NCBI GenBank assembly: GCA_016928995.1
Contig: JAFGJS010000070.1
Span: 1 to 64,000, forward strand
Reading direction: 5' to 3'
DNA length: 64,000 bases
Source: Candidatus Sumerlaeota bacterium
GTDB lineage: Bacteria; Sumerlaeota; Sumerlaeia; JAFGJS01
Of this stretch, positions 1 through 17,325 are shown in pieces. Numbering within the stretch: position 1 is the stretch's first letter; the number at the start of each line of letters is the position of its first letter. The position numbers and the translations under genes were made by a program. The notes beneath the pieces were generated by a model. That model was given only the letters and a program-made list of their open reading frames with translations. It made no database searches and had not been told where the DNA came from.

Positions 1-2411
1 CTAGCGGTTATCGAAAAAAACTGTTTGGAGGAATCATACCCAACATGGCCATTATCATCTCGTGAAATTACCCTGATAGCGCATTTTTGCGAGATGACAT
101 CTGGTGTTGTCCAATTCAACTCTCTATTATTTCCCGAATTACCTGGAACACGAATAAGCGGCACCAAATGACAGCTATTCCATTCATCAGTTGTATATTC
201 AACTTCAATCTTCGAGTCATTCCCTTGAGCAGAATAGAATTTTATGGTTGTAGACTGTTGAGGATTGTACGGCTCACCATCTTGCTGAGAAGACTGGATG
301 GTAAGGGGTCCGCGTTCAATGCTGTCAAGATAATATCCATTTAACACTTGCTCACGGGTAATATCAGGATAAGTCCGCGGAATTTGATTCATTTCCTCTT
401 GGGAGATTATTGATACATTTGCAAAATCCCAGCCGCCCAAATCAAAAGGTTCTTGGTTAAAAAACAGGCGTTTGCCGCCCTTAGATATTACGAATACCGC
501 TGGATCGCCTGTAACTTTTATTAACGATCCTTCTGGATATGGCGTAAGAATGGGAAAGGATTCTGTGAATTGATTTAAATAGGCTTGCGATACAATTCTT
601 GGATTGCCGTAATTATGGCCCACTTGCTCACCACTTATAATTATTCCTCGCAAAACATTTGGAGAAACAATATGGTGTCGAGTCCAAAAGGAACCATTGG
701 GCGGATTGGTATATTGCGACCCTACTGGTATTCCGGGCACATTGTCACGTTTGACAAGCCAAATACGGTCGCTATCAGCTGTTTTGACTACCTCTTCCTC
801 CTGAAATCGATATCCTAAGTCCCATCCTCTTGAATAATTTTCAATTTCGTGCTGAGTTACTGAGATTTCATGCCGTGGTCCCCATCTCTCCATCCAAGGC
901 GAGTGCCCATCCCAATCATACCAATCCCAATATATTTCGACGGTTGGAATATGACGGAGATAACCATTCTCAACAATATAACTTCTCCCAGAACAATTCA
1001 AAAGTGAACCATTGGGATGCCAACTTATTCCTTGCAATTCAAGATATGGAAGGCTTACAAACCAACCCGTTTCTCGCCAGTTAAATTGCCAAAATATCTC
1101 CACATTCACATCTTTTTTAATTGTGTCAGTATAGTATCGAATCGGACCGGAATGATCACTGTATGAATCTGAATCAGACGCATCCAGCTGTCTTTGAATA
1201 TCTTGATTGCGCCAGCAAAACTCTTGCCTTGTTCCATCAAATTCAGCGAGTCCCCAAAAATCTCTGTCGTAACGGGAGTAATAATTTTCCAGTAAAACAG
1301 GATAACGTCCATATTCCGTATCAAGACGGCTAATAATGCATTTACCTAAAGCGCTATCAGCATGCCCCTCTTTGGGCATATATGGATCAAGAAGTGTGAT
1401 TTGAAGCTCAACATCATCCGTCTTTTCCAGCAGATATTTTGCGGCTGTACGAGCGCACCAAGTTCCGGCGCTATGCGCTATAAATTGTACTTTTTTAAGA
1501 TTCGGACAGTTTTCTTTGAGGTATTCACCAAGATATTGCCCATGAACATGGGCTACTTCTGCTGCTTCTGTCCCATTTTTTGTCGGCCAAGTATCGATAG
1601 ATCGAGATTCATCCATTGAGTATCTTGATAGAGATCGACCTGGATTGTCTCCAAATGCAGGACCTGTATCAGCATCAACCGCCCAATTATATTCCACAAT
1701 TTTCCAATCGTCTTCTAAGTTGTTCTGAATTAACCAATCCGATATTTCTCTACTCAAATCTTGAAACTCTTTTCCATCTTTATATGGGTCGGCTAAGCTA
1801 TCGGGATTCCAACCGTGAATAAGAATGATCAATTTTCGATGGTTTTCATCGAGAGGATTTCCATCAGTATCTTTTGGTTTAATAAAATGCAATCGGCGGA
1901 AAAGATGATAATTCAATCCTTTCGGCGCATCAGTGATTTGCAAGTAGTCGTAAATAGGATGCCAATAAGACTTTCCGTCAATCCTCACATCTCTCCATGA
2001 CACATACTGACCATTACCTCTAAAACATTCTTCAGGATAAGATGAATCAATGAATATAGTTGATGGAATCCACATTAAGAATAATTCGGATTCCAATTTA
2101 CCTACTGCTTGGTCTATCGGATTGTCATCAGTTAAAGGAGAGTAGTATAAATTAGCGTCATCATCAAACCATCCTACATTAAAATGATCTTGCAATACTC
2201 CCCTTCGGCAATAATAGTACCGGTATTCATTTGAACGTCGTTCAATTTCGTTATATCTTTCGGTATACAAATCATCGTCTAATCCATAAGGCAATTCATC
2301 ATTTACCCAAGGTAAAGATATTTGCGTGATTTCAGAATAGGAAAAGCTAGGACATAGGAAAAGAATTAGGAAAACAAAAATCTGAAAACCATCGGTGAGT
2401 GAAGTTTTCAT
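1..2411 (-). CDS. Secreted lipase-like alpha/beta hydrolase (C-terminus beyond window)
   Basis: An uninterrupted reading frame of about 803 codons starts at ATG 2411 and is still open at base 1, so the gene is partial at its 3' end. AGGA precedes the start. Residues 1-27 form a signal peptide. An oxyanion-region motif ILIHGW lies near residue 200, a nucleophile elbow IAHSAG at Ser314, a probable Asp in LLDPY (342), and a probable His in SDHSGP (420) followed by IRYYTDTI. The Asp and His contexts resemble the pancreatic-lipase family (GLDP; H...YYTDSI). The elbow has Ala for the usual first Gly. The C-terminal half contains a GDPAVFVI...KRLFF stretch like cell-wall 'KRW' beta repeats, then an Ig/FN3-like region. 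I infer an extracellular esterase or lipase; the substrate is unknown. The gene is AT-rich compared with most of the window. Confidence 0.8.
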   Translation of the reverse strand, partial: MKTSLTDGFQIFVFLILFLCPSFSYSEITQISLPWVNDELPYGLDDDLYTERYNEIERRSNEYRYYYCRRGVLQDHFNVGWFDDDANLYYSPLTDDNPIDQAVGKLESELFLMWIPSTIFIDSSYPEECFRGNGQYVSWRDVRIDGKSYWHPIYDYLQITDAPKGLNYHLFRRLHFIKPKDTDGNPLDENHRKLIILIHGWNPDSLADPYKDGKEFQDLSREISDWLIQNNLEDDWKIVEYNWAVDADTGPAFGDNPGRSLSRYSMDESRSIDTWPTKNGTEAAEVAHVHGQYLGEYLKENCPNLKKVQFIAHSAGTWCARTAAKYLLEKTDDVELQITLLDPYMPKEGHADSALGKCIISRLDTEYGRYPVLLENYYSRYDRDFWGLAEFDGTRQEFCWRNQDIQRQLDASDSDSYSDHSGPIRYYTDTIKKDVNVEIFWQFNWRETGWFVSLPYLELQGISWHPNGSLLNCSGRSYIVENGYLRHIPTVEIYWDWYDWDGHSPWMERWGPRHEISVTQHEIENYSRGWDLGYRFQEEEVVKTADSDRIWLVKRDNVPGIPVGSQYTNPPNGSFWTRHHIVSPNVLRGIIISGEQVGHNYGNPRIVSQAYLNQFTESFPILTPYPEGSLIKVTGDPAVFVISKGGKRLFFNQEPFDLGGWDFANVSIISQEEMNQIPRTYPDITREQVLNGYYLDSIERGPLTIQSSQQDGEPYNPQQSTTIKFYSAQGNDSKIEVEYTTDEWNSCHLVPLIRVPGNSGNNRELNWTTPDVISQKCAIRVISRDDNGHVGYDSSKQFFSITA

Positions 2412-3044
2412 GGTCATTCCTAAATTAAGATTTGTTTACTGTGCCATAATTGCAACGTTGTCTTTTTCGATATTATGATGTACATGATGATATAAGGTAC
2501 GTCATTGTATATTATTGCTTCAAGCGCTAAATCGGAGACATCTTATATTATCGACAACACTGTTACGGCCTTGCATTTTGCTGAATCGTGCTATATCATA
2601 TATAATGAATCTTAGAACTTTTCTCGGCGCATTTTCCAGTTGAACAAAAAGAACTGACACGCAAGTCTCAGAATTATGATTTTCCCTAATCACATAAGGG
2701 AGCCTTTAATATGTCATCTACTGCAAAGGGACATTTTACGGATTTCCAAAATAAGAGACCCCGTTAATTAGCACTCCTGGTGATCTTCTCGCGCTGACTG
2801 GGAAATTTGTCAATTATTTTACGCGGCCAGGCATGAAGAACTTTCTGCATTTCATCGTCACGTACGCCTGACTGTGGGGTGTATGACGGAAACCATGAAT
2901 GCCACGCGCATTCACGAGCGCATGCAATGGACGACACTGTACCAGTGGATGAACCGTAGGATCTTTTCCAGAGGTGAGGTTTCACGCACGTTTTTCAAGA
3001 TGATCCACCGCAGCCAAATCGACGGTGATATAATCATCACCAGC
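2412..3044. other. Intergenic, AT-rich, no supported gene
   Basis: This stretch lies between the secreted hydrolase, which is transcribed away to the left, and the transposase remnant. It must hold the hydrolase promoter, but I see no convincing -35/-10 pair. Short frames on both strands at 2764-3128 have no family signature apart from the transposase segment that begins near 3045. Confidence 0.5.
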
Positions 3045-3352
3045 GCAGGCGTGTGGGCCGATTCCGCCTATCGCTCGGTGGAAAGTTTGGAGTGGCTCGC
3101 AGAACCCGGTTACCGCGAGCATCTGTAGCGCAAAGGCTCGCTTCGCAAGCAACTTACCGTCCGCGATAAGAAGGCAACCGCGCCCGTAGCCGGATTCGCT
3201 CGCACGTCGAACGTATCATCGACGTTATGGCGTAGCGAACTGGCAGCCTGCTCTTGCGAAACATCGTCCTTGCGCGGGCGCGCAGCAACATCGGTCTACG
3301 CAACCTAGCCTACAACTTATCCCGCTGCGCTCTGCTGACGCAAAACAGCTGA
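3045..3352 (+). pseudogene. Remnant of an IS5-type (DDE) transposase C-terminus
   Basis: Conceptual translation gives VWADSAYRS, GYREHL, RKGSLRKQL, RSRIRSHVER and RNIVLARARSNIGLRNLAYN in that order. This is the C-terminal half of IS5-family transposases, including the catalytic Glu region (SHVER). The frame is broken by TAG after GYREHL (near 3126), by a one-base frameshift near 3170-3180, and by TAG after DVMA (near 3233). Both stops can be explained by CAG to TAG. The N-terminal half and clear terminal inverted repeats were not found. It is a dead mobile element in the AT-rich flank. Confidence 0.75.
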
Positions 3353-3555
3353 AACTCGGTTAAGCCGCTCAGCCATCGGAAAATAGATTAACGCCGAAAA
3401 AAAATGCAAGAAACGGCACAAACGTCTCTATTCACGGGGGAAAAATCAAAGAACGACGAACTTTGCAGAACCACGAATCATCAAAATTGAAATCACCTAG
3501 CACAAAATTCAATTTTCAGAGGTTCACTTCAATATACAATATATATAATATAAAT

Positions 3556-3969
3556 ATGAACAAAAATAAATTTACATTTGAAGCAGCAATATACTTATTT
3601 AACATTGTTGTTTTAACATTGATTTATATTGCATTTATTATCTCGTCCTTCTATTTCTGGGTTTTAAAAGATTTTGTTGCTATTCCAATAGTTATTTCTA
3701 TGTTTTATATGATGATTTATGCAATAGGATTTATAAAGTGCCGCCTAAATAACATTATGTTTAATATCTCTTTTGTAGCGAGATGGCTATCTGCAATAAA
3801 TTTAATTGCTATTATTGACACTGTATCTAACCCAAGATTTTATGGTACTGGCTTTGGTGATGGGCGCTTTGATCTATACTTCATTTCTTTTCCGGTATGG
3901 GCAGTAACAACCACAATTTCTGTCGTATTTTTTTTAATTGGGATTTCAAAATATAAAAAGAATAATTAA
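3556..3969 (+). CDS. Small AT-rich membrane protein, unknown function
   Basis: The frame is open from 3463, but the ATG at 3556 (MNKNKFTF) gives a sensible start directly before the first hydrophobic segment. The product is about 137 residues with four hydrophobic stretches: IYLFNIVVLTLIYIAFIIS, a second around PIVISMFYMMIYAIGF, a third around WLSAINLIAII, and a C-terminal TTTISVVFFLIGI followed by a Lys-rich cytoplasmic tail. I do not recognise the family. It is strongly AT-rich and sits between a dead transposase and a bidirectional terminator, so recent transfer is likely. The long hydrophobic ORF in biased sequence supports it as a real gene. Confidence 0.55.
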   Translation: MNKNKFTFEAAIYLFNIVVLTLIYIAFIISSFYFWVLKDFVAIPIVISMFYMMIYAIGFIKCRLNNIMFNISFVARWLSAINLIAIIDTVSNPRFYGTGFGDGRFDLYFISFPVWAVTTTISVVFFLIGISKYKKNN

Positions 3970-4012
3970 CTGAATTTATAATGATCGCATCTGTCACATT
4001 ACCAGAAGAGAT

Positions 4013-4041
4013 AAAGCCAGCATTGCGAAAATGCTGGCTTT
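4013..4041. terminator. Bidirectional intrinsic terminator
   Basis: An 11-bp perfect stem (4013-4023 with 4031-4041) has a 7-base loop and AAA/TTT at its ends. It lies between convergent genes: the membrane protein ending at 3969 and the nuclease ending at 4061. Confidence 0.75.
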
Positions 4042-4060
4042 AGTTGATGCTTTGGGCGGT

Positions 4061-4858
4061 TCACCCCTGAACGAACAATCGTTCAACCTCCTGTTGATTC
4101 CTCAAACACACAGGCAAATAGTCGCACCACTTGCACCACATGCCGGGGCGTTTGTGGAATTGTCGCTCGGTGATCTGTTGGCCTATATATGCCGCCTTTT
4201 CTAGAAACTCAGTCAGTTGCTGGCCATCACGCTGGGTCCAATGCCATTCGATGGATGGCTGCTTGGTTTTGACCAAGACGCAGAGGGCGAGGTTTTCGGC
4301 TTCGGGCTGGGCGAGGCGGTAGGCGGTGAGTTGATCGCTGAGGACCACGTCGGATTCAGCGTAGGCAGAGGCGCTGGTTTTGAAGTCGATGACGGTGCGT
4401 TTGCCGTCTACTGTTGCCACGAGGTCGATGACGCCGATGAGGGAGGCTTCGAGATTGGTGATGATGAGTTCGAAGGGTTGTTCGACGGCTTCGACCTTTT
4501 CGATGTGCGTGAGTTCTTCGTCGATGAATTTGGACATCAGTTTTTCGCCTTTGGTCTTGAGCGAATCCCAACTGTCGCGACCCGAGTATTTGAGTTCGGC
4601 ATCTTGGATTTGTTCCCAAAGTTCGATGAAGTGCTTTGCCGGATCGGCTCCGTGGAGAAAAAGATTAGCCAATGCTTGATGGATGAATTGGCCGAAGACC
4701 AGATTGGCTGGCGGGATTTTGAGTCGCAGTTTTTCCTCGTAATAGAGCCTGTATTGCTCCGGACAGAGTTGGTAGCGGTTGATGCGCGAATAGGAAAGTT
4801 TGGGAGCGCCTGAATGGATCAGGCGCTCCTCTTTTTCTTGGATTGCGATTGCGGCCAT
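4061..4858 (-). CDS. RecB/Cas4-like PD-(D/E)XK nuclease with Fe-S cysteines
   Basis: About 265 residues from ATG 4858. GGAGG is supplied by the last codons of the upstream gene, whose stop lies 2 bases before. Numbered from this start, the N-terminal region has SYSRINRYQLCPEQY (first Cys ~32), then GQFIH with the RecB-family His, then GVIDL (Asp ~145), VIDFKT (Asp and Lys ~158-160) and QLTAYR, which are the PD-(D/E)XK core motifs. The C-terminus carries CKWCDYLPVC. One N-terminal Cys plus three C-terminal Cys match the 4Fe-4S arrangement of AddB/Cas4-type nucleases. No cas gene or CRISPR array is present. It probably works with the SWIM protein encoded just upstream and the divergent ATPase genes. 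Role inferred: DNA end processing. Confidence 0.85.
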   Translation of the reverse strand: MAAIAIQEKEERLIHSGAPKLSYSRINRYQLCPEQYRLYYEEKLRLKIPPANLVFGQFIHQALANLFLHGADPAKHFIELWEQIQDAELKYSGRDSWDSLKTKGEKLMSKFIDEELTHIEKVEAVEQPFELIITNLEASLIGVIDLVATVDGKRTVIDFKTSASAYAESDVVLSDQLTAYRLAQPEAENLALCVLVKTKQPSIEWHWTQRDGQQLTEFLEKAAYIGQQITERQFHKRPGMWCKWCDYLPVCLRNQQEVERLFVQG

Positions 4859-4860
4859 GA

Positions 4861-5805
4861 TCACCGCCTCCCATTGTTGCCGTTGAGCGGCAACAACTGA
4901 TCGACGTTGGTGAAGCGGCCATTGCGCGAAAGCACCACGCGACAAGGCACATTGAGTTGAGTGCCTTGCTCTAACTGGCGGGAGAGATGGCCGTAGCCCG
5001 CGTTCTGCAACTGTTCGCCGAGGCTTTTCATCGAGCCGAACAGTTTGTAGTTTTGGCCGTTGGCGCTGACAGAGATGAATGTGCGCCAGCCAAACCTGGT
5101 CTGCATTCCGCCGACTTCGAACAGATAGGCATCCACGGCTTGGCCGTTCTGGTTGTCGTTGCCATGTCCATTGTTGCTGCGTTGCTGTTGTTGGCCGTTG
5201 TAGTCGTTGCCATGATTCTGTGGATAGTTTCTGCCGTTTCCGTTTCTATTACGATTGTAATGGGCGTGACCATTGTTGCCATTGCCGTTGCCATCGTTTC
5301 TGCTGTCATTACTGTTTCCATTCTGTTGGCGGCCTTTGAATTCCTGGGCGATCTGCTCTTGCAGGCCTAGAAGAACGGAAGCCTCATCAATCATCCAGCC
5401 GTCCATTTGACCGTCTAGTGGCAACGACAGTTCCACCGACAACGAGTCGATGCGGCCGTCGGGACTGACGCTACGCTTGAGCGTCATCATGGACTGCGAA
5501 GAAGCGGGCGCGGGATACGATTCATTGCCGTTGGGCGGAAATGATGTATCCAACGCTGGCTCTTGTTCTTCATCCGGCAGCTGACTGCGTACGGAGCGGA
5601 TGTGGTAGCAGGCGAAGCCTAGTTGACTTTTCATCGCCTGAAACGGACCGCAGGTGCAGCGTGGATGCTGACGCGTACCGGAGACGATGTAGGACACGTC
5701 TGGGGCACTGGGCGAATAGACGCGGATGCCTTCCGCACAGGGCGAAGAGACCAGCACATCGGGCCGGGCCTCCTCGACGGGTTGATCCAGTTGAGCAGTG
5801 CTCAT
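4861..5805 (-). CDS. SWIM zinc-finger protein with Asn/Gly-rich linker
   Basis: 314 residues. C50-x-C52...C66-x-H68 is a SWIM-type zinc finger (CTCG...ACYH), expected to bind DNA or protein. Residues ~155-222 are a low-complexity stretch of Asn, Gly, Gln, His and Arg. The C-terminal ~90 residues (FGWRTFISVSANGQNYKLFG onward) form a compact domain I do not recognise. The start at ATG 5805 follows GGAGGAA. The gene is translationally coupled to the downstream nuclease (2-base gap). It is divergent from the ATPase gene at 6068, across a repeat-containing spacer. A role as a DNA-binding adaptor for the nuclease or the ATPases is inference. Confidence 0.75.
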   Translation of the reverse strand: MSTAQLDQPVEEARPDVLVSSPCAEGIRVYSPSAPDVSYIVSGTRQHPRCTCGPFQAMKSQLGFACYHIRSVRSQLPDEEQEPALDTSFPPNGNESYPAPASSQSMMTLKRSVSPDGRIDSLSVELSLPLDGQMDGWMIDEASVLLGLQEQIAQEFKGRQQNGNSNDSRNDGNGNGNNGHAHYNRNRNGNGRNYPQNHGNDYNGQQQQRSNNGHGNDNQNGQAVDAYLFEVGGMQTRFGWRTFISVSANGQNYKLFGSMKSLGEQLQNAGYGHLSRQLEQGTQLNVPCRVVLSRNGRFTNVDQLLPLNGNNGRR

Positions 5806-5853
5806 GAGTTGTTCCTCCTTGGGATTGTATTGAAAGATCGAGGCTCGAATGGG

Positions 5854-5948
5854 TTCTCACACAGAGGCACGGAGGCACAGAGAACCGATTTTTTTGTGTT
5901 GCACATATAACATCAATTCTTGGTGTGCTTTGCGGCTTTGTGTGAGAA
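5854..5948. repeat. Imperfect inverted repeat with 10-bp perfect ends
   Basis: TTCTCACACA (5854-5863) pairs exactly with TGTGTGAGAA (5939-5948). The interior contains tandem GAGGCACRGAG-like units and AGAACCGATTTTTTT. A related direct copy starts at 11207, immediately after the large ATPase gene. The element occupies the divergent promoter region. Confidence 0.7.
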
Positions 5949-6067
5949 TTGCTTCGAGGCTGTCTTCAGTTTAGCTTGTGGAGGAAATCGGCCAAGACGG
6001 CGCGAAGTGCCGTGGCAAGCATGCTTCAGCGCCTTGTTGTTTGTCTGTGAAGCGTTATGCTGAAGGA

Positions 6068-7318
6068 ATGGCTTCTCTACAAAACAATCCGATCACCTTT
6101 TTTGGCCAGACTGATTTTCGCGGCGAAAACCGGCGTTTTGGCATTTATCAAACGGACCGGCGTGCTCACATGTACATGATTGGGAAGACCGGCACGGGCA
6201 AGAGCACGCTGCTGGAGAATTTGATCCGGCAGGATATGGAAAATGGACGTGGGCTTGCGTTGCTCGATCCACATGGGGATTTGTGTGAGAAAATTTATGC
6301 TTTGGTTCCAGCCAAGCGCCAGAAGGATGTGATTTATTTCAACGCTGCTGACGCGAACGCACCGGGATTCAATCCATTGGAGCGTGTGCCGCCGGACAAG
6401 TTTGCGTTGGCGGCGTCGGGACTGCTGGAGGCTTTCCGAGCGATCTGGTTGGATTCCTGGGGGCCGCGTTTGGAACACATTCTACGCAACGCGATTCTGG
6501 CGTTGCTGGAAACACCTGGTTCGACATTGGCGGATATCCCCCGTCTGTTTAATGAAAAACCGTTTCGCGCGAAGACCGCGACGGCTTTGAGTAATCCGCA
6601 GGTGAAGAATTTCTGGTTGCGGGAGTATGAAGGTTATACCGCACGGTTACGTGCCGAAGCTATCGCCCCGATCCAGAACAAGGCCGGGGCGTTTCTGGCA
6701 CATCCGGTGCTCAATCGCATATTAACGCAACAGCACAGCGGCTTTCATGCACGCAATATCATGGATAAGGGACAAGTGCTGTTGATCAATCTAGCCAAAG
6801 GCAAGATTGGCTATGACGCCTCACGCCTGCTGGGCGCGCTACTGTTGTCGCGGCTGACGCTGGCCGGATTGAGCCGCGCCGATCAACTGGAAGTGGAGCG
6901 CCGCGACTTCTACATCTACTTAGACGAATTTCCAAGTTACGCCACGCTAGAACTGGCGATGATGCTGTCCGAACTGCGCAAGTACCGCGTGGGTTTGATA
7001 TTGGCCCACCAGTATCTCACGCAATTGGATCTGCCGCTTCGCGATGCGATTCTAGGTAACGCTGGAACGCTCATCGCCTTTCGTACTGGCGTGGCTGACG
7101 CTGAAATCTTGGCCAAGGAATTCTATCCAGTGTTCAAGATCAGCGACCTGACTAACCTTCCCAACTATCGCATCTATTTGAAGCTGATGATTGACGGCGC
7201 AATATCCGAGCCGTTTAGCGCCGCAACGCTGCCGCCTTTGCAACTGGCCTTGCCATCGAATGAAATCATTTCACCGCAAGAAAAAACTGTAGGGCAGGTC
7301 ACATTGCCCTTGCCATAA
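6068..7318 (+). CDS. HerA/VirD4-like DNA translocase ATPase (smaller)
   Basis: About 416 residues from ATG 6068; an upstream GTG at 5978 in frame is an alternative start with GGAGG close by. Walker A is IGKTGTGKST at ~residues 38-47, followed by LLDPHGDL, a signature of the HerA/VirD4/TraD superfamily. Walker B is YIYLDEFP (~282). Sensor-like ILAHQYLTQL and the TraG/TraM-recognition-type ending (RTGVADAEILAKEF) follow. The family moves DNA through hexameric rings in conjugation, chromosome segregation or HerA-NurA resection. No membrane segment is present. It shares its core organisation with the larger ATPase ending at 11206, with one membrane-protein gene between them. No relaxase gene lies nearby. 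Confidence 0.85.
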   Translation: MASLQNNPITFFGQTDFRGENRRFGIYQTDRRAHMYMIGKTGTGKSTLLENLIRQDMENGRGLALLDPHGDLCEKIYALVPAKRQKDVIYFNAADANAPGFNPLERVPPDKFALAASGLLEAFRAIWLDSWGPRLEHILRNAILALLETPGSTLADIPRLFNEKPFRAKTATALSNPQVKNFWLREYEGYTARLRAEAIAPIQNKAGAFLAHPVLNRILTQQHSGFHARNIMDKGQVLLINLAKGKIGYDASRLLGALLLSRLTLAGLSRADQLEVERRDFYIYLDEFPSYATLELAMMLSELRKYRVGLILAHQYLTQLDLPLRDAILGNAGTLIAFRTGVADAEILAKEFYPVFKISDLTNLPNYRIYLKLMIDGAISEPFSAATLPPLQLALPSNEIISPQEKTVGQVTLPLP

Positions 7319-7378
7319 CCTTCGTTAATAATCTATCCATCATCAACAACCATTTAAGCATCAAGAAGGAGGGAGTGC

Positions 7379-8029
7379 ATGAGTTTAATTGAACCGCTCA
7401 GCAATTGGAACACCATGATCCAGGGGATGCAGGGCACAGCGGAGGAATTCTATGAGCGTTTGACGCTTACGATTGAACACATGAAGTTGCCGAACGTGGA
7501 ACTGAGCACAGTGGATTGGCCGGAAGCGGGATGGACCTCGGCCAAGCGGAAGTACTTGCGAGTCCAGCGCGGACGCTATGTTTTTGACATCTGCGCCGCG
7601 CCGTTTGGCCCTAATCACTTATTCTATTCGTGGTGGTTCGGGATCAAAATGCCAGGGATGTTCGCTTCCACTTTGCTCTTTCTGATCTTGCTTGGCGCAT
7701 CGTGGGCGGGCTTGTTGTTTTGTGGAGTCAAACTCTATTTTGCGCTGCCAATCGCTCCGGCGATTCTGCTGCTCTTATCCATTATTTTGGTGCGCACGGA
7801 TAACGATCTGGCGCTTTACATCTGTTCGATTTTTCTCATTGGTCCGGTGCTTAAGTTTCTGTTGCTGCCTTTCACCTACTACCGTTGTGACACCGAGGCG
7901 ATGTTTCAAAAAGGAGTGCACACCGCAGTGCTGGAAACTGTGGATTATTTGACCGGCCAGAACAACTTGCCGCAGCTGCCGGACGATCAGCGCAAGCCTA
8001 TCATGCGCGATTTCTTCCGCCGGAGATAA
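7379..8029 (+). CDS. Membrane protein of the ATPase cassette, unknown family
   Basis: 216 residues; AAGGAGG lies 6-7 bases before the ATG. Residues 1-80 are soluble and Trp/Arg-containing. Two or three long hydrophobic segments follow (FASTLLFLILLGASWAGLLF; ALPIAPAILLLLSIILV; YICSIFLIGPVLKFLLLPF), then a ~50-residue soluble tail ending in FFRRR. I do not recognise the family. Its position between two HerA/VirD4-like ATPase genes, 6 bases before the second, suggests a membrane partner or anchor for the translocase. That is inference. Confidence 0.7.
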   Translation: MSLIEPLSNWNTMIQGMQGTAEEFYERLTLTIEHMKLPNVELSTVDWPEAGWTSAKRKYLRVQRGRYVFDICAAPFGPNHLFYSWWFGIKMPGMFASTLLFLILLGASWAGLLFCGVKLYFALPIAPAILLLLSIILVRTDNDLALYICSIFLIGPVLKFLLLPFTYYRCDTEAMFQKGVHTAVLETVDYLTGQNNLPQLPDDQRKPIMRDFFRRR

Positions 8030-8035
8030 TGCGCC

Positions 8036-8128
8036 ATGCATCCTGACTTGGCCGAACAGATCAGCGAGCAGTTTCAAGTCTGGGAGACGCGCGGCCGCGG
8101 CTGGTTGCTGTGGAATGATCCGGTGTAA
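8036..8128 (+). pseudogene. N-terminal 30 codons of the large ATPase, cut off by in-frame TAA
   Basis: ATG 8036 opens MHPDLAEQISEQFQVWE... and reads to a TAA at 8126-8128. The next codon, TTG 8129, continues in the same frame with LEPPFAPFDP and stays open for 1,025 codons. The sense across the stop (WNDPV-stop-LEPPFAPF) reads like one continuous N-terminus. A single substitution (for example CAA, GAA or TAT to TAA) would explain it. Alternatives are a sequencing error, re-initiation at the adjacent TTG, or readthrough. Confidence 0.6.
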
Positions 8129-11100
8129 TTGGAACCGCCGTTTGCGCCGTTTGATCCAGCGTTGCGGCAACCTGCGATGATTGACGATGGTCGCCAAGCG
8201 TCGTGGCTGACGCGGCTGCTGGATCACTTGGGGGGCGTGCAATCCTTCAGGGAGCCGGATGACGGTGATGAGATTCCGGTCTCGGATGTGCCGTCGCCGG
8301 TTTACGATACGGACGATGACATTGCCACGGAATGGCAAGTCTTGCTGCCTGACGGCGCAAACATATCGCTGCCCGTGGTCGAGCAACTGCTATTGGGATT
8401 GAGTTTTTGCTCCGCACCGCTGGCGTTTGAAATCATCGGCAATGAAAAGCAGATCGCGATGCAACTGGCCTGCCGCCGGAGCGACGAATCGCGTTTATTG
8501 CAACAGGCCAAGGCGCATGCGCCTGGCGCAGTCTGGTCTCCGCCGCCTCAGCCCTTGCCCGTGACTTGGCCGCCGCCTTATGAGCGTCCGTCGCTGGTGG
8601 TGGATTTCGGCTTATCCAACGCCTTCCTATTGCCTTTGCGCATCTGGTCCGACCTTAAAACCGATCCGCTAGTCGGCGTGGTTGGGGCGTTATCAAACCT
8701 AATGGAGGAGGAATGGGGCGCACTGCAAATTCTGTTCAGTCCCATTCATCAGCCTTGGGCCGCGAGCGCGTTACATGCGTTAAATTTTTTCGATGCGCCG
8801 GAGTTACTCTCGCAAGCCCGGCAGAAAATCAGCGCACCGCTGTTCGCCGTCTGTTTGCGCGTAGCCGTCTCCAGCCCGGACGAAAACCGCTGTTGGCGCA
8901 TCGCTCAGGACATCGCCGCGCCGCTGGAACAATTGAGCAATCCCACTGGCAATGAGTTGATCCCCTTGGACAATGATGGTTATGACGCTCATGATCATCT
9001 ACTCGATTTTCTGGAGCGCCGCAGCCGCCGCAGCGGGATGCTGCTCAATGTCCGCGAGCTGCTTTCCCTGCTGCACTTTCCGTCCGAGAGCGTCAAGAGC
9101 GCCAAACTGCTGCGGCTGGATCGCCGAAGCAAGGCCGTTCCAGAGATCGCATTAGATCATGCGTTGACGCTGGGCGTCAATCAACACAACGGACAAGAGC
9201 GCACGGTCACGCTCAGCGCCGATCAACGCACGCGGCATGTCTATGTGGTCGGTGCATCTGGCACCGGCAAATCGACCTTGTTGCTCAACATGATCCGGCA
9301 GGATATTGAAGGCGGGGAAGGTTTAGCCGTGCTTGATCCTCACGGCGACCTGATTGACCGAATACTCGAATTCATTCCCGAAGAGCGCTTCGATGATGTA
9401 GTGCTCTTCGATCCGTCTGACGGCGAATTCCCGGTCGGCTTCAATATCCTCGAAGCCCACACCGAACTGGAAAAGACCTTGCTCGCTTCGGATCTGGTGG
9501 CGGTCTTCCGGCGGCTCTCCACGGCCTGGGGCGACCAGATGAATTCCGTACTGGCCAACACCATTGTCGCCTTCCTGGAAAGCAGCGAAGGCGGCACGCT
9601 TTCCGATCTGCGGCGTTTTCTGGTCGAGCCAGCCTTTCGAAAAAAGTTTTTGGAAACCGTCAGCGACAAGGAGATTGTCTATTACTGGCAGACCGAATTC
9701 CCCATGCTTTCGGGCAAGCCGCAAGGCCCGCTACTCACGCGGCTCGATACTTTTCTGCGGCCGAAACTGATCCGCCATATCGTTTGCCAGCAAAAGACCA
9801 AACTTGATTTCGCCAGGGTGATGAATGGGCGAGGCATCTTTCTGGCCAAACTGGCCCAAGGGGCCATCGGCGAAGAAAATGCCCATTTACTTGGTGCGCT
9901 CTTGGTCGCCAAAATCCATCAGACCGCGCTCAGCCGTCAAGACATTGCCGAAGCGCAACGTCAGAATTTTTGGCTGTACATCGACGAGTTTCACCACTTC
10001 ATCACGCCGTCGATGTCTTCGATTCTTTCCGGCGTGCGCAAGTTCCGCATGGGCCTGATTCTCGCGCATCAGGAACTTCGGCAACTTGGCCAGGATTCCG
10101 AAGTAGTCAACTCGGTCTTGTCCAATCCCTACACCCGCATCTGTTTTCGCTTGGGCGACGCCGACGCCCGCAAACTAGCCGCCGGATTTTCCGCCTTTGA
10201 AGAAAAAGACCTGCTCAACCTCAGCACCGGACAAGCCATTGTGCGCATGGAGCGCGCCGAGTACGACTTCAACTTGACTGTGCCGATGCTGGAACCCATC
10301 GAACCGGAGTTGGCCGAAGAACGCACGAACGCCATCCGCGAACTCTCGCGCGATCATTACGCCACCGAACGTGAAGAGGTGGAAGCCGCCCTCAACCATC
10401 GCTGGGAAGAGTATGCCGCAGAGGAAGAAGAAAAGAAACGAAAAGCAGAAGAGGAGAAGCAGGCAAAGAAAAAAACCGCTGATGCGTCCAAAACGTTCAA
10501 AACAGTACAAGAAAGCCCAGCGGGCAGTAGTACAACGTCAGTGGAAACTGCATTGAAAGAAACCGTCGCTCTTACATCACAACTACCGTCATCATCCGCT
10601 CCCGCCACGGCGGCTACGCCGGAAGCCAAGCCGCCAACGCCGCCTGCCGCTTTGCGCAAGACCGCGCCGCCCGCCCCCGCGCTGGGCGGACGCGGCGGCC
10701 AGCAGCACAAGTACCTGCAAAACCTGATCACCCAACTGGCTCAAGGCATGGGCTGGCGCGCCGATCTCGAAAAGCCCGTGCTCGATGGAGCAGGCAGCGT
10801 CGATGTTGCGCTCGAAAAAACTGGCTGCATGGTCGCCTGCGAAATCTCTGTTACCACGCCCGTCGAACACGAAGTCGGCAATATCGAGAAGTGCCTCAAA
10901 GCTGACTTCGATCATATACTGGCAGTCTCAAATGAGCCTAAACACCTTAACAAAATCAAGCAAGCCGCCGCAGCCGCATTGCCCGAAGCCGAACTCGCCA
11001 AAGTCGCCTACTGCGCCCCCGAGGAAGTCATCGCCTGCCTTGAACAAATCGATGCTCGCCTAGCCAGCAAGGAACAAACCGTCCGCGGCTGGAAAGTCAA

Positions 11101-11206
11101 AGTCAACTACCAGCCCCAAACCGAACAAGAAAAAGCCGCCAAGAAAGAAGCCATCAGCCAAGTTCTCCTCAAGCGGTTGGCCGGAAAAATGAAAAAGAAA
11201 CGATGA
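8129..11206 (+). CDS. Large HerA/VirD4-like ATPase with C-terminal nuclease-like domain
   Basis: 1,025 residues from TTG 8129, but probably begun originally at ATG 8036. Residues ~1-340 form an N-terminal region of unknown fold. Residues ~345-735 are the ATPase: Walker A GASGTGKST (~374), LDPHGDLI, Walker B WLYIDEFHHF (~616), LILAHQELRQL, and a TraG-type ending. Residues ~760-795 are a Lys/Glu-rich probable coiled coil, followed by a Pro/Ala-rich linker to ~850. Residues ~855-980 (GGRGGQQHKYLQNLI; SVDVALEKTG; CEISVTT) look like a PD-(D/E)XK fold in which the usual Lys of ExK is Ser. It is therefore either an inactive or variant nuclease. It is the last gene of the rightward cassette, and a repeat starts at the base after its stop. 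Confidence 0.8.
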   Translation: MEPPFAPFDPALRQPAMIDDGRQASWLTRLLDHLGGVQSFREPDDGDEIPVSDVPSPVYDTDDDIATEWQVLLPDGANISLPVVEQLLLGLSFCSAPLAFEIIGNEKQIAMQLACRRSDESRLLQQAKAHAPGAVWSPPPQPLPVTWPPPYERPSLVVDFGLSNAFLLPLRIWSDLKTDPLVGVVGALSNLMEEEWGALQILFSPIHQPWAASALHALNFFDAPELLSQARQKISAPLFAVCLRVAVSSPDENRCWRIAQDIAAPLEQLSNPTGNELIPLDNDGYDAHDHLLDFLERRSRRSGMLLNVRELLSLLHFPSESVKSAKLLRLDRRSKAVPEIALDHALTLGVNQHNGQERTVTLSADQRTRHVYVVGASGTGKSTLLLNMIRQDIEGGEGLAVLDPHGDLIDRILEFIPEERFDDVVLFDPSDGEFPVGFNILEAHTELEKTLLASDLVAVFRRLSTAWGDQMNSVLANTIVAFLESSEGGTLSDLRRFLVEPAFRKKFLETVSDKEIVYYWQTEFPMLSGKPQGPLLTRLDTFLRPKLIRHIVCQQKTKLDFARVMNGRGIFLAKLAQGAIGEENAHLLGALLVAKIHQTALSRQDIAEAQRQNFWLYIDEFHHFITPSMSSILSGVRKFRMGLILAHQELRQLGQDSEVVNSVLSNPYTRICFRLGDADARKLAAGFSAFEEKDLLNLSTGQAIVRMERAEYDFNLTVPMLEPIEPELAEERTNAIRELSRDHYATEREEVEAALNHRWEEYAAEEEEKKRKAEEEKQAKKKTADASKTFKTVQESPAGSSTTSVETALKETVALTSQLPSSSAPATAATPEAKPPTPPAALRKTAPPAPALGGRGGQQHKYLQNLITQLAQGMGWRADLEKPVLDGAGSVDVALEKTGCMVACEISVTTPVEHEVGNIEKCLKADFDHILAVSNEPKHLNKIKQAAAAALPEAELAKVAYCAPEEVIACLEQIDARLASKEQTVRGWKVKVNYQPQTEQEKAAKKEAISQVLLKRLAGKMKKKR

Positions 11207-11456: not shown

Positions 11457-11639
11457 AAAGTCTGCGTTCAGACTTGAGCGTTCTCAACTGCAAACACCAC
11501 CACCGGCCCGTATGGGCTGTAAGATGCGGAACGCACAAGAGCTGGATTGCTCCCGCCTAGGGAGTGCGTCCTGCTTTGTGCTTGCATCTTGGGGTGTGGT
11601 GCCCCGCAGTTGGAGCGCGAGCGGATGCGCTCCCTTTTT
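11457..11639 (+). ncRNA. Candidate structured non-coding RNA ending in a terminator
   Basis: The sequence folds into nested helices. Hairpin AAGTCTG/CAGACTT (11458-11475) comes first. Closing helix P1 is CAACTGC (11485-11491) with GCAGTTG (11606-11612). P2 is CACCACCACC (11495-11504) with GGGGTGTGGTG (11591-11601). Hairpin GCCC-GTAT-GGGC spans 11506-11517. A long hairpin has ends AAGATGC (11521-11527) and GCATCTT (11584-11590), with inner helices GCACAA/TTGTGC and GCTCCC/GGGAGTG. A terminator follows at once. The competing pairing GGGG/CCCC (11591-11605) suggests possible switching. I do not recognise an RNA family. A frame runs through it from 11512, but no plausible protein start lies before 11680. 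It could be an independent sRNA or a leader/riboswitch for the next gene. Confidence 0.6.
11612..11639 (+). terminator. Intrinsic terminator of the structured RNA
   Basis: GGAGCGC (11612-11618) pairs with GCGCTCC (11627-11633), followed by CTTTTT. It lies 40 bases before the start of the beta-propeller gene, so it ends the RNA or attenuates that gene. Confidence 0.75.
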
Positions 11640-11679
11640 CATTTTAAACCACATATCTTCCCACGTGAAAGGAGATAAA

Positions 11680-14600
11680 ATGATGCGGGCACAATTGTGT
11701 GCAATTTCCAGCGTTATGCTTATGTGTTTATGCGTGGCATATTATTCTGCAAATGTCTTTGCGGAAAACATGAATGTCGAATTTGTCAGTCAAATTGGCG
11801 GCGATTGCACGGCAGTCACAATCCAAGGCGACTATGCCTATATCGGCGAGGGAGTGAAACTGACGATCCTTGATATTGCCAATCCCGCCAGTCCTCAAGT
11901 CATGAGCCGGATTCAATTATCAAGCATAAGTTCATCTGACTACATTAACGACATTGCCGTAAACGGTTCATTCGTATATTTAACATATGGTGAAAGAACC
12001 ATTTGCCAAGGTGATAAATGCGGCATGCAAATCATCGATATTTCAAATCCTGCCAACCCGGTTTTACGCGGAGAATATATTATCCCCTATATTTCAAGTG
12101 AACCTGTTCCTGCAACGGGAGTGGCAGTCTCAGGCATCTTTGCGTATGTGTCAACCAGCAGATATCGCGGAAGCCACGGCGGATTATTGATTATCGATAT
12201 ATCAAATCCAGACAATCCCGTTTTGCGCGGTTCATATTATGAAGGTACATATTATGGGAAGGCTGAAGATGTCGCGATTGTCGGCTCGCTGGCTTACATG
12301 GCGTTCAGCGGAACTCAATATGGGCTTAGAATCATCGATGTATCAGATCCGGAGAATCCGGTCCTGCAAGGTTTATACGCCTCTCTTGGCGGTGCGCACG
12401 AAGTGGTGATCGCCAACTCACTGGCTTATGTGGCATATGGGGATATATATTCCGATACTGGCGGCTTACAGATCATTGATGTGACCAATCCAGCCGATCT
12501 ATTGCCGGTTGGCTTACTCGATGCTCCCGGCAATGTTGTTGGCTGTGCGGCATCTGGTTCCATTGCATATGCAGTAGGATCATTTGGCTTTTTGACGATT
12601 GACATATCTAATCCAACCGCTCCCGCCATACAAGGCTCATATAGCACTGTCGATGACGCGCAAGATGTTGCGGTTTCAGGCGCAACGGCCTTTGTTGCGG
12701 AAGGGGAAGATGGGGTTGAGATCATCGATGTATCCAGAATAGCCAGTCCATATTTAATGAGCGCTTGCACTACTGCGGGGGAATCTTATGGCGTCGATAC
12801 CTCGGGAACTTTAGCGTATATTGCGGACGGTGAAAATGGTCTTCAGATTGTTGATTTTTCAATCCCCGCTCAACCCGCATTAAGAGGTTCATATGACACT
12901 TCCGGTTTTGCGCTGGATGTGGCGGTTTCCGGGCATATGGCTTATGTCGCGGACCGATGGAGCGGCTTGCAGGTCATTGATGTATACAATCCTGACCGGC
13001 CTGTTTTCCGGGGCACTTGCGACACTGGTGGACAAGTCCTGGGAGTGGCGGTTTGGGGTTCATATGCTCTTGTGGCAGATAGTGTAAAAGGACTGATAAC
13101 TATCAATGTGGCGGAGCCTGATCATCCAAGGAAAGAGGGAACTTATGGCTATGACGATGCTCATGATGTGGCGACATCGGGTTCAGTCGCATTTGTGGCG
13201 GATGGTGAAAACGGTCTTCGGATTGTGGATGTATACGATCCATATGAGCCAATCTGGGGTAATTGCGACACTCCTGGCGATGCCCAAGGAGTGGCCGTTT
13301 TCGGTTCTCTCGCTTTTATTGCCGATGGCAGTGAAGGATTGCAGGTTTTTGATGTATCCGATATTACCAATCCAACGCTGACAGGCTCTTGCCAAACACC
13401 CGGCAATGCCATCGCCGTTACGGCAAACGATCATTTCGCCTATGTGTCCGACAATGAAAACGGCTTGCAGATTGTCGATGTGTCTAATCCGGCCAATCCG
13501 GTATTGCGCGGATCATACACCATTCAGAGCGACTGTCAAAAGGTCGCTCACTCCGGCACATTGGCTTTTCTAACGGATGTTGAACTCGGAGTGCAGATCA
13601 TTGATGTATCCAATCCAGACAACTTAAATCAGCTATCTGTATATGAAACTTTTGACTACTCAAACTGTCTCGATATTTCTGGGTCATCGGCTTTTGTGTC
13701 AACAGGCTTAAACAATAATCCGAGTCCAGGCCCTGGTGGAATACAAATAATCGACATCTCAAATCCAGCAATCCCGGTTTCTACAGGATTTATCCCCACA
13801 CCCTATGTGCCGCAAGATGTAGAAATATCGGGAACACTTGCCTATATTGCCCATTACCGTTATCCCTACAATTCTGGCGGTTTTCAAATTTTCGATATAT
13901 CCAATCCCTATAATACTGAATTGTGTGGCGCGTATATCGGCTATGATTCATCGAAAGTCGTGGTTTCCGGTGCGCTGGCCTATTTGGCAACAGATTATTA
14001 TGGATTGTTGATCTTCGATGTAGCCAATCCGGCTAATCCAATATTGCTTGGTTCTTATGACACTAGAGCCAACGATGTGGTAATATCCGGTTCATACGCA
14101 CATGTGGCCGATTCATCTTACGGATTAAAAATCATCGACATTTCAAATCCAGCCGATCCTTTTTTGCGTGGTTCTTATCCTACTGACAACGCCAATGGCA
14201 TCGCCCTTAAAGATTCAATGGCATATATTGCTGATGGAAATGAACTGAAAATCATTGATGTATCATATCCAATCAGCCCGGTGCTTATAGGCATCTATGA
14301 CACTGCTGGAGAAGCGCAAGAGATTGCAATCTTGGGCTCGTTAGCCTTTATTCTTGATGGCGGTTGGTATGGAGGTCTGCGAGTGATCGACGTATCCAAT
14401 CCTGATGATCCGGTTCTGTGCGGATCTTATGATATTCCGTATAAAACAAGCATGAAGATGTCTGGTCTTGATATATATCTCACCGGGGATGAGTTGACAG
14501 TCTTGCGCTATGCGCCGACGAATTCACTGACAATCACGGGCAATACAGTGGTTGGTGGAACTCGCGTGGAATTCAGCGGTCTGGCGACAGTGTGGTCCGA

Positions 14601-14883
14601 TACCGCTGGCGATTATCAATATGAACTTATCCCTTATGGCTGGAGCGGCACGATCATTCCGTCCAAGCCGGATTATGTCTTTTTGCCAACGCAACGCTCC
14701 TATGCCAACGTTACGGCTGATTTAAGCGATCAAGATTTTACCGTCAGTCGCGCATTCTATGCCAAGGTACGCGATCATATTCTGGGTATTAAAACATTAA
14801 CAGGTGATGACCTGATTAACGCAGACGCCAACGGCGATGGCCTGGTGGACATGGCCGACATTCTTCAACTGAAAACGCCATAA
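11680..14883 (+). CDS. Secreted LVIVD-repeat beta-propeller protein with dockerin-like end
   Basis: About 1,067 residues. ATG 11680 is chosen because GAAAGGAG precedes it and a signal peptide (MMRAQLCAISSVMLMCLCVA) begins there. Most of the protein is some twenty repeats of the LVIVD type, each reading roughly GLQIIDVSNPANPVLRGSYD then a small-residue strand such as VAVSGSLAYVAD. These are predicted to form stacked beta-propellers on the cell surface. Residues near the C-terminus carry an Ig-like segment and then NADANGDGLVDMADILQL, a dockerin/EF-hand calcium motif in a single copy. The role is probably binding or adhesion. The gene is less GC-rich than its neighbours. It is cargo between the ATPase cassette and the recombinase. 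Confidence 0.85.
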   Translation: MMRAQLCAISSVMLMCLCVAYYSANVFAENMNVEFVSQIGGDCTAVTIQGDYAYIGEGVKLTILDIANPASPQVMSRIQLSSISSSDYINDIAVNGSFVYLTYGERTICQGDKCGMQIIDISNPANPVLRGEYIIPYISSEPVPATGVAVSGIFAYVSTSRYRGSHGGLLIIDISNPDNPVLRGSYYEGTYYGKAEDVAIVGSLAYMAFSGTQYGLRIIDVSDPENPVLQGLYASLGGAHEVVIANSLAYVAYGDIYSDTGGLQIIDVTNPADLLPVGLLDAPGNVVGCAASGSIAYAVGSFGFLTIDISNPTAPAIQGSYSTVDDAQDVAVSGATAFVAEGEDGVEIIDVSRIASPYLMSACTTAGESYGVDTSGTLAYIADGENGLQIVDFSIPAQPALRGSYDTSGFALDVAVSGHMAYVADRWSGLQVIDVYNPDRPVFRGTCDTGGQVLGVAVWGSYALVADSVKGLITINVAEPDHPRKEGTYGYDDAHDVATSGSVAFVADGENGLRIVDVYDPYEPIWGNCDTPGDAQGVAVFGSLAFIADGSEGLQVFDVSDITNPTLTGSCQTPGNAIAVTANDHFAYVSDNENGLQIVDVSNPANPVLRGSYTIQSDCQKVAHSGTLAFLTDVELGVQIIDVSNPDNLNQLSVYETFDYSNCLDISGSSAFVSTGLNNNPSPGPGGIQIIDISNPAIPVSTGFIPTPYVPQDVEISGTLAYIAHYRYPYNSGGFQIFDISNPYNTELCGAYIGYDSSKVVVSGALAYLATDYYGLLIFDVANPANPILLGSYDTRANDVVISGSYAHVADSSYGLKIIDISNPADPFLRGSYPTDNANGIALKDSMAYIADGNELKIIDVSYPISPVLIGIYDTAGEAQEIAILGSLAFILDGGWYGGLRVIDVSNPDDPVLCGSYDIPYKTSMKMSGLDIYLTGDELTVLRYAPTNSLTITGNTVVGGTRVEFSGLATVWSDTAGDYQYELIPYGWSGTIIPSKPDYVFLPTQRSYANVTADLSDQDFTVSRAFYAKVRDHILGIKTLTGDDLINADANGDGLVDMADILQLKTP

Positions 14884-14948
14884 TGCGTTTCAACCAGGAC
14901 CAAACCATAGCAACACTTCAACCACTTCACTTAATCGGAGCAACGACC

Positions 14949-15377
14949 ATGAATAAAACGACAAGTTTTTATATTCGCAAAAATAATTTGACCGCTTGGA
15001 CGGCAGTCCAATCCCGCCGCATGATTCTGCTGCTATTTCTCGCCTTGATCCCTGCTGGGTGCGCCAGATATGCCAACGTTTCACCGGACTCCCGGTTGGC
15101 CGATATCCGGGTCGGTATGGGAGAATCTGAAATGCAACGAGCGATTGGCCGCTCATGGGACGACGCCGATATTCTCACATATCCGGGCAATATTCTGATT
15201 TCCCTGCCTTTTAAACTGCTCTTCTTGGATTTGTTCATCCAGCCGCCGCTGACCGGCTCCTGTTACTACTACCGAGGCGAAGGCCGGGTTTATGTCCGGC
15301 AGGGCTGGTTCTGGTTCAGCCGGGGACACCGGGTGTACCGGGTGGTGGGCGACCGGCGGGAAGACGGCTATTTATGA
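14949..15377 (+). CDS. Small lipoprotein, unknown function
   Basis: ATG 14949 is preceded by CGGAG; the frame itself opens at 14883. About 142 residues: a hydrophobic segment MILLLFLALIPAGC with a lipobox at Cys, then LADIRVGMGESEMQRAIGRS, which resembles the short helix-turn region of SmpA/BamE-like lipoproteins. Two Trp/Tyr-rich segments follow (YYYRGEGRVYVRQGWFWF) and an RVYRVVGDRREDGY end. Outer-membrane or periplasmic attachment is likely. It follows the propeller gene by 65 bases and may share its transcript. Confidence 0.6.
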   Translation: MNKTTSFYIRKNNLTAWTAVQSRRMILLLFLALIPAGCARYANVSPDSRLADIRVGMGESEMQRAIGRSWDDADILTYPGNILISLPFKLLFLDLFIQPPLTGSCYYYRGEGRVYVRQGWFWFSRGHRVYRVVGDRREDGYL

Positions 15378-15497
15378 CGACGCCAGCTCTGAGGCAATAA
15401 TGCGGCCATAATCCGGTTGATCGGCATGCGCTTTTGCGGTATATCAGCCGAATCTCGAATCGATTTTCAGCGGTCATTGAGCGAGAAGGAATCTTTC

Positions 15498-17045: not shown

Positions 17046-17325
17046 AAAAACCGTCAACTACTTGCGATTCGATGTAGCCTGTCGGCTCGCTGCCGGCTAC
17101 GCTGGCGCTGTCGTTGGACCAATATGTGGTCTGACCGGTCTGGTTCACCAGCGCGAACTTGAAGTACCCCGTGCCATTGAACGGCGCGCCGTCGTGCTTC
17201 ACCCGGCCGTTGTAATTGAACTCCACCTCCTGCGTCGCTTGGGCGAAATTCGCCAGCAGCAGGATCAGCGCCGCCCACGTGATGAAAAACAGCGCCTTTG
17301 CGTTCCGTTTGATGCTTGCATCCAT
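16985..17325 (-). pseudogene. Surface-protein gene truncated by the island
   Basis: GGAGAATGGAAAA precedes ATG 17325. A signal peptide (AALILLLANFAQA) is followed by VEFNYNGRVKHDGAPFNGTG, YFKFALVNQTGQTTYWSN and FFNVAIGDTLMGMDPLLPTRF. This is the N-terminal module of a family of large secreted proteins that usually continues for hundreds of residues. Here the frame passes into sequence complementary to the recombinase end and stops at 16933. Only the first ~110 residues look native. Confidence 0.7.

Follow-up and report, generated by a model that had tools for sequence, protein, structure and literature searches.

The core of the locus

We examined a window of 64,000 nucleotides (the whole stretch analysed, nearly all of the 64,811-bp contig C113) from a Candidatus Sumerlaeota bacterium. 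The window contains part of an integrative mobile element, whose DNA-motor core is a locus with two ATPases of the HerA/VirD4 superfamily. A sequence-only reading had described five open reading frames (ORFs), in two divergent operons, as one compact unit ending at 11206. All five frames are present and the minus-strand and plus-strand operons do diverge, but the limits of the unit are different. The core consists of a small ATPase, a membrane protein, a big ATPase and a large serine recombinase (LSR), and it runs on through two cargo genes to the LSR, which had been left unconnected; the minus-strand pair, a nuclease and a SWIM-motif protein, has relatives only in Sumerlaeota elements. The core and the recombinase end comprise the following features.

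6068–7318, plus strand: small ATPase, a motor-only translocase of the VirD4/VirB4 superfamily (Pfam TrwB_AAD_bind, E = 2.3e-11)
7379–8029, plus strand: membrane protein immediately 5' of the big ATPase, with about three hydrophobic segments and a YVFDICAAPFG..SWW motif
8036–8128, plus strand: detached N-terminus of the big ATPase, seen in translation and closed by an in-frame TAA (8126–8128) through which homologues read
8129–11206, plus strand: big ATPase, 1025 aa (TrwB_AAD_bind, E = 9e-13; Walker A and B)
15417–17045, plus strand: LSR, CcrB-like, the integrase of the element (Resolvase, E = 5e-31; Recombinase, E = 2.9e-20)
16971–17010, no strand: attachment junction, element arm ATGGCAAAAGGGCAAC and then the host gene; the matching arm ATGGCAAAAAGGCAAC is on contig C140 and in the ends of elements integrated in comM
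16987–17325, minus strand: N-terminal half of the interrupted target gene, whose similarity to five intact paralogues ends at residue 113

The TrwB_AAD_bind matches and the Walker A and B motifs, present in the small ATPase as well, bear out the superfamily assignment of both motors. For the big ATPase the frame had been read correctly but not the start. The probable original start is the ATG at 8036, and the 30 codons ahead of the TAA encode a near-invariant WExRGRGW motif, while the frame after the TAA is open throughout. Because the TAA cuts off these conserved codons, the window carries either a nonsense mutation or a sequencing or assembly error, and with this codon its copy of the element may be decaying or inactive.

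Attachment ends in the window genome

The LSR matched CcrB with E = 2.2e-44, yet scored far under the cut-off of that family. Its 3' end overlaps the minus-strand target gene; the recombinase end of the element, ATGGCAAAAGGGCAAC, lies at the junction at about 16987. The opposite junction is on C140, a 3.3-kb contig of the same genome, where a helix-turn-helix gene and ATGGCAAAAAGGCAAC precede the C-terminal half of the target gene (C140:1186–1494). Because ATGGCAAAAGGGCAAC and ATGGCAAAAAGGCAAC match, both ends of the element share one inverted arm. A site-specific recombinase and a target gene interrupted by matching attachment ends, the marks of an integrative element, are thus both found here. 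C140 also has what reads as an insertion-sequence-like transposase gene.

The target belongs to a family of proteins of about 450 aa with five intact paralogues in the window's own genome (on C122, C124, C88, C109 and C129), conserved at the N-terminus and variable in the C-terminal part. Given these five paralogues, the integration sequence occurs several times in this genome. Since the window is nearly the whole of C113, the element runs past the left end of that contig and is incompletely assembled.

Relatives of the core and complete copies in comM

Relatives were collected with one genome per species. As a single-sequence query against genome contigs the big ATPase found no relative, whereas a profile from an alignment of three sequences succeeded, returning 240, of which 80 were kept. 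Neighbourhood counts refer to 80 or 82 loci whose fetched flanks were short, many of the loci being truncated. The membrane-protein family occurs in 64 loci and lies less than 150 nt upstream of the big ATPase in 55 of 80. Members of the LSR family occur in 48, and a recombinase follows the big ATPase in 38 loci, within 150 nt in 12 of these. The conserved order runs from the small ATPase through the membrane protein and the big ATPase to the LSR. In a comparison of a Desulforudis with a Moranbacteria contig, a 6.5-kb block of exactly these four genes is 76% identical in DNA, and its flanks have no similarity at all. One of the two contigs is possibly misbinned, but the block boundary holds regardless. 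The conserved order and this block both support the core as a unit. In the tree at least ten phyla are represented, and single rows of Pseudomonadota and Wolfebacteria are nested in other groups, which argues for mobility.

A second Sumerlaeota genome of the same class (G013) has all five genes of the sequence-only reading plus the recombinase, inside a split comM gene whose halves lie at C1:84985–86043 and, for the C-terminal half, near C1:122786–123079; the element is about 36.5 kb long. Its small ATPase is 63% identical to that of the window, compared with 50% for the homologue in a distant genome (G080). comM, whose product helps to recombine foreign DNA in natural transformation, is cut between MNP and CPCG in many loci, and eight complete copies of the element (20–76 kb) split it at this single site. 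Those delimited by both comM halves on one contig include Flavipsychrobacter stenotrophus (20.1 kb), Limnovirga soli (42.5 kb) and a Bryobacteraceae genome (42.9 kb); besides these and the G013 copy there are others of 37.1, 42.0, 59.4 and 75.6 kb. The existence of the element is thus supported by the split target with matching arms in the window genome, by the eight copies that split comM and by the full core in G013. Other mobile elements are known to target comM in Acinetobacter, and defence genes often accompany them (PMC11472951).

The ends of the comM elements repeatedly show the arms AAAAGGCAACGCA and TGCGTTGCCTTTT, in slightly varying form. The recombinase adjoins the N-terminal half of comM in three cases (G013, G103, L050) and the C-terminal half in G107, and in L089 the helix-turn-helix end, rather than the recombinase end, is next to the N-terminal half. 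Such insertion either way round is consistent with a palindromic attP. The ComM of the window host (contig C161; L020 286–1815) is intact and without the CPCG segment, reading MNPTQSGY instead of MNPCPCGY, which is possibly why the element uses a different target there.

Several variants were seen among these copies. The 75.6-kb interval, in JAFDYQ010000001.1, holds two copies of the core (L087, L111), as tandem or nested elements, and in Mucilaginibacter (G108) comM is in three pieces. A second, distinct serine recombinase recurs near RuvC-like and helix-turn-helix genes (L014 4320–5954, L095 19131–20765, L126–L128); a partner recombinase and an inner element are the candidates. A viral origin was considered and set aside: only two IMG/VR contigs matched, no capsid or packaging gene was recognised, and phages that have such an ATPase pair are distantly related.

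Folds of the big ATPase

We modelled the whole big ATPase with AlphaFold (mean pLDDT 82) and its N-terminal domain separately (pLDDT 91). The protein has a VirB4-type N-terminal domain (about residues 58–330), a TrwB/VirB4-type motor (330–740) and a PD-(D/E)XK-like C-terminal domain (857–980). The modelled motor was closest to TrwB/VirD4 (Z 24.2, 367 residues aligned), followed by VirB4 (Z 23.0) and HerA (Z 19.1). The N-terminal domain matched residues 32–423 of TrwK/VirB4 with Z 16.4 (242 aligned, root-mean-square deviation 3.4), a likeness in fold only given 12% identity; the next matches were ESX-3 (Z 10.2) and unrelated oxidases (about 7). By its motor fold and Walker motifs the big ATPase is a member of the VirB4/VirD4 superfamily, and its N-terminal domain is that of VirB4 at the level of fold, on which ground we set aside the idea of a plain coupling protein.

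The C-terminal domain keeps H860, E881, D892 and E915 in all 68 homologues and E905 in 66 of them, and shows the E..D(12)E pattern known from PD-(D/E)XK folds. Structural matches to endonucleases were weak, and a profile search of the PDB gave a single match at chance level. With the conserved residues of this domain and the PDDEXK_1 match of the minus-strand nuclease, the two nuclease-like modules of the sequence-only reading stand. Since the (D/E)XK lysine is missing from its usual place, however, DNA cutting by the C-terminal domain is only a putative activity.

The motor and N-terminal folds resemble those of the type IV secretion system (T4SS) ATPases VirB4 (TrwK) and VirD4 (TrwB). The locus differs from those systems in the added nuclease-like domain, in the motor-only paralogue and in having no recognised VirB6, 8, 9 or 10 gene. 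It shares with HerA–NurA and antiphage HerA systems a motor of the HerA-type superfamily together with a nuclease, but its motor is nearest to TrwB/VirB4, its nuclease-like domain is fused, and it sits in an integrative element; no NurA family matched among the window neighbours in Pfam.

Proposed transfer functions

Pfam scans covered the G013 and Flavipsychrobacter (L095) elements gene by gene, and the Limnovirga and Bryobacteraceae elements (G107, G103) were read and partly scanned. The complete elements contain serine recombinases, RuvC-like and helix-turn-helix genes, ArdC or a primase, the ATPases and cargo. VirB4 together with mating-pore genes, as expected of an integrative and conjugative element (ICE), was found in none of these four. 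For the window, we agree with the sequence-only reading that there is no recognised relaxase or pilus gene and that the locus seems to fit neither HerA–NurA nor a classical ICE; its five-gene order was not found beside relaxase and pore genes in known ICEs. This is qualified by an Embleya plasmid, where a distant homologue of the big ATPase lies beside PrgI, ATP-binding (VirB4-like) and replication-relaxation genes, and by a Replic_Relax/MOBC gene near the core in 7 of 82 loci, mostly in Verrucomicrobia and Acidobacteria and confirmed by whole-genome matches.

We propose, with a probability of roughly 0.55, that the core provides minimal T4SS-type motors that move the excised DNA of the element between cells. 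The TrwB and VirB4 fold matches, the conserved PD-(D/E)XK residues and the Embleya homologue beside PrgI support motors of this kind, and some relatives carry an ArdC antirestriction gene, as expected of DNA that enters cells. The excised element would circularise. The adjacent membrane protein may hold the big ATPase at the inner membrane, by analogy with VirB3 and VirB4, and the big and the motor-only ATPase would form a pump that drives element DNA through the cell envelope into another cell. The part of a classical relaxase might be taken by the PD-(D/E)XK-like tail, which would process the DNA (a nick, an end or a branch). RuvC-like and primase genes of the complete elements could then repair or convert the DNA, and the recombinase would reinsert the element, either way round, in the new host. 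The Cas4-like nuclease and the SWIM protein would be a DNA-processing pair added in Sumerlaeota. A more specific reading, which we put forward tentatively and consider less likely than not, is that of a widespread undescribed transfer system: a stripped-down T4SS motor of the inner membrane, made up of a VirB4-like ATPase with its own nuclease domain, a partner that is motor only and a single membrane protein, would move the integrative element between cells with no classical relaxase and no known outer mating pore.

Several observations weigh against transfer between cells. In none of the four complete elements did we recognise a gene for a pore, a pilin or a VirB6-like protein, although divergent pore proteins are possible, and no relaxase of PF13814, PF03432 or PF03389 lies inside complete-element boundaries, although other, unrecognised families are possible (PF13814 did match in six related genomes). 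Nor does the C-terminal domain look like a fused MOBC relaxase, a candidate that we rejected because its profile has no similarity to Replic_Relax (hhalign probability 2.5), and it lacks the lysine mentioned above. Among 13 host genomes none had a VirB4 family above cut-off, and 10 of them have either no VirB4 at all or none besides the motors of the elements themselves. The membrane protein matched neither the VirB3 nor the PrgI family, a short ATPase was seen in just 23 of 82 loci within the short flanks fetched, and the big ATPase gene of the window itself is interrupted. The main doubts are a borrowed pore and motors acting solely inside the cell.

With a borrowed pore, the element would be an integrative and mobilisable element (IME) whose ATPases are coupling proteins docking to the mating pore of another element, and its relaxase would be its own Replic_Relax/MOBC protein or an unrecognised nuclease. 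Streptococcal IMEs of class 8 combine a serine integrase, VirD4 and Replic_Relax/MOBC in a compact module (PMC5357655). The elements studied here resemble them in the serine integrase, the VirD4-superfamily ATPase, the compact module, the intragenic insertion and the absence of a mating pore, and the Replic_Relax genes near 7 of the 82 cores, on which whole-genome matches agree, point the same way. However, complete elements tested have no Replic_Relax, Relaxase or MobA_MobL gene, most hosts have no VirB4, and a VirB4-type N-terminal domain is not a feature of coupling proteins. The nuclease-like tail of the big ATPase, the extra ATPase and membrane protein, the comM target and the spread over many phyla are further differences from class 8. 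We regard an IME as unlikely.

If the motors acted solely inside the cell, they and the nucleases would work on the excised circle, in replication, branch resolution, segregation or end loading. The RuvC-like and TOPRIM-primase genes of the elements fit such a role, HerA-type translocases also match the motor (Z 15–19), and SCCmec elements are reported to carry a primase-helicase of their own (PMC7581432). Against it stand the conserved membrane-protein gene just before that of the big ATPase, the VirB4-type N-terminal domain and the absence of a helicase or loader among the conserved core families, and we consider a purely intracellular role quite unlikely.

The nonsense codon in the window and the PrgI, VirB4-like and relaxase genes of the related plasmid locus would also suit the remnant of an ordinary ICE that has been stripped of its T4SS genes. 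Most of the 80 loci, from at least ten phyla, and eight complete elements have the core without a pore at full length and in conserved form; since independent decay to an identical remnant is improbable, we give this explanation hardly any credence.

Accessory genes, cargo and defence

The remaining features are accessory genes, cargo and the left end of the window.

4061–4945, minus strand: Cas4/RecB-like PD-(D/E)XK nuclease with a four-cysteine (Fe-S) pattern, accessory (Pfam PDDEXK_1, E = 1.7e-28)
4861–5805, minus strand: SWIM-motif protein, accessory, with a single CxCx(n)CxH motif; its gene overlaps the nuclease gene
11512–14883, plus strand: cargo, secreted LVIVD-repeat protein with a dockerin-like end (16 LVIVD stretches, E = 5.7e-150)
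14883–15377, plus strand: cargo, small lipoprotein-like protein (an ORF with no Pfam family)
1–4060, no strand: probably more DNA of the element or its cargo, as far as the end of the contig, unproven; A+T-rich (GC 0.40 against 0.53), the other attachment end being on a different contig

The nuclease has the motif GVIDLV..DFKT and cysteines at 61, alone, and at 271, 274 and 280, and the SWIM protein has one SWIM motif and no Pfam match, so that both had been correctly named from sequence. Their G013 homologues are 50% and 45% identical, respectively, with the C-terminal domain of the SWIM protein conserved, and G080 has a 26% identical nuclease close to its small ATPase. Outside the two Sumerlaeota elements, none of the other loci among the 82 had close relatives of this gene pair; as judged from these comparisons, the pair is a Sumerlaeota-specific accessory and not part of the conserved core. 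The A+T-rich left end contains a hydrolase, a transposase fragment and a small membrane protein; an apparent insertion-sequence transposase remnant lies at 2874–3128.

The slot between big ATPase and LSR, which holds two cargo genes in the window, is empty or differently filled in relatives. There, or on the far side, they carry genes of CBASS (SAVED-HNH, cyclases), Bil and restriction-modification (RM) systems, with further matches to Pycsar cyclase, Shedu, TIR and type I RM models. The comM element of Limnovirga soli has a complete-looking Bil (ubiquitin-like) operon (L126 5668–8514), and that of G013 a CBASS-like trio of HNH-SAVED effector, cyclase and E2-like protein with SEC-C (L014 6764–9497).

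This wealth of defence genes, the matches of the core motors to those of HerA-Sir2 and HerA-DUF4297 and a match to mad8 of MADS (4.6e-17) raise the question of whether the core is itself a stand-alone antiphage system of the HerA–nuclease type. PADLOC matches of the core were at superfamily level only: the mad1–8 set was not found beyond that mad8 match and a coiled-coil match to mad3. The antiphage HerA model gave 13 bits against a cut-off of 970. Furthermore, the core travels with its own recombinase and attachment sites, and the defence genes vary as cargo. A stand-alone defence system is very improbable, and we reject defence as the function of the core while keeping it as a role of the cargo. 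The sequence-only reading had suggested a new DNA-transfer, DNA-processing or defence system; transfer remains the lead, and a free-standing defence or repair system does not, since the serine recombinase and attachment sites make the locus an integrative mobile element.

Discussion

Integrative elements with a serine recombinase and a VirD4-type ATPase are already known as a kind. Apparently new are the VirB4–nuclease fusion, the core of two ATPases and a membrane protein without recognised relaxase or pore, and the preference for comM across phyla. In the open-access literature on comM with serine recombinases, or on VirB4 in Verrucomicrobia, we found no description of the family; one outside open access is possible.

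Known systems close to the motor set include loci of actinobacterial plasmids (Embleya; PrgI–VirB4–VirD4–Replic_Relax) and Bacillus phage G, a jumbo phage whose gp154–gp156 (L132 3306–7806) are in turn a small hydrophobic protein, a VirB-like ATPase and a big-ATPase homologue, a conjugation-like motor set. Both have paired ATPases, and their homologues of the big ATPase cover some of the N-terminal domain as well (E = 5e-89 and 3e-60). Unlike the elements studied here, they have PrgI, a separate VirB4-like ATPase or both, the neighbourhood shown contains no serine recombinase, and their homologues stop after the motor (812 and 825 aa). Actinomycete ICEs transfer double-stranded DNA by a TraB/FtsK-type, DNA-pumping ATPase without relaxase or T4SS pore. 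The likeness is by analogy only, as the motors here are of VirB4/VirD4 type and occur in many phyla, most of them two-membraned. Staphylococcal cassette chromosome (SCC) elements and the ssrA islands of Dehalococcoides (PMC3146451) share the CcrB-like serine recombinase, a defined gene target, variable cargo and the absence of a conjugation apparatus, but they have no module of two ATPases and a membrane protein, their targets are rlmH and ssrA, and their other core genes differ.

Altogether, the family of elements extends over at least ten phyla, many of them represented by metagenomes alone; its members disrupt comM and bring CBASS, Bil and restriction-modification genes with them. Should the motors of these elements transfer DNA, the defence genes would spread by a route that scans for conjugation may miss, because relaxases and pores are what such scans search for. 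The question can be tested in Flavipsychrobacter stenotrophus and Limnovirga soli, two cultured hosts that each have a complete copy. The targeting of comM, seen also in Acinetobacter (PMC11472951), may be a general strategy.

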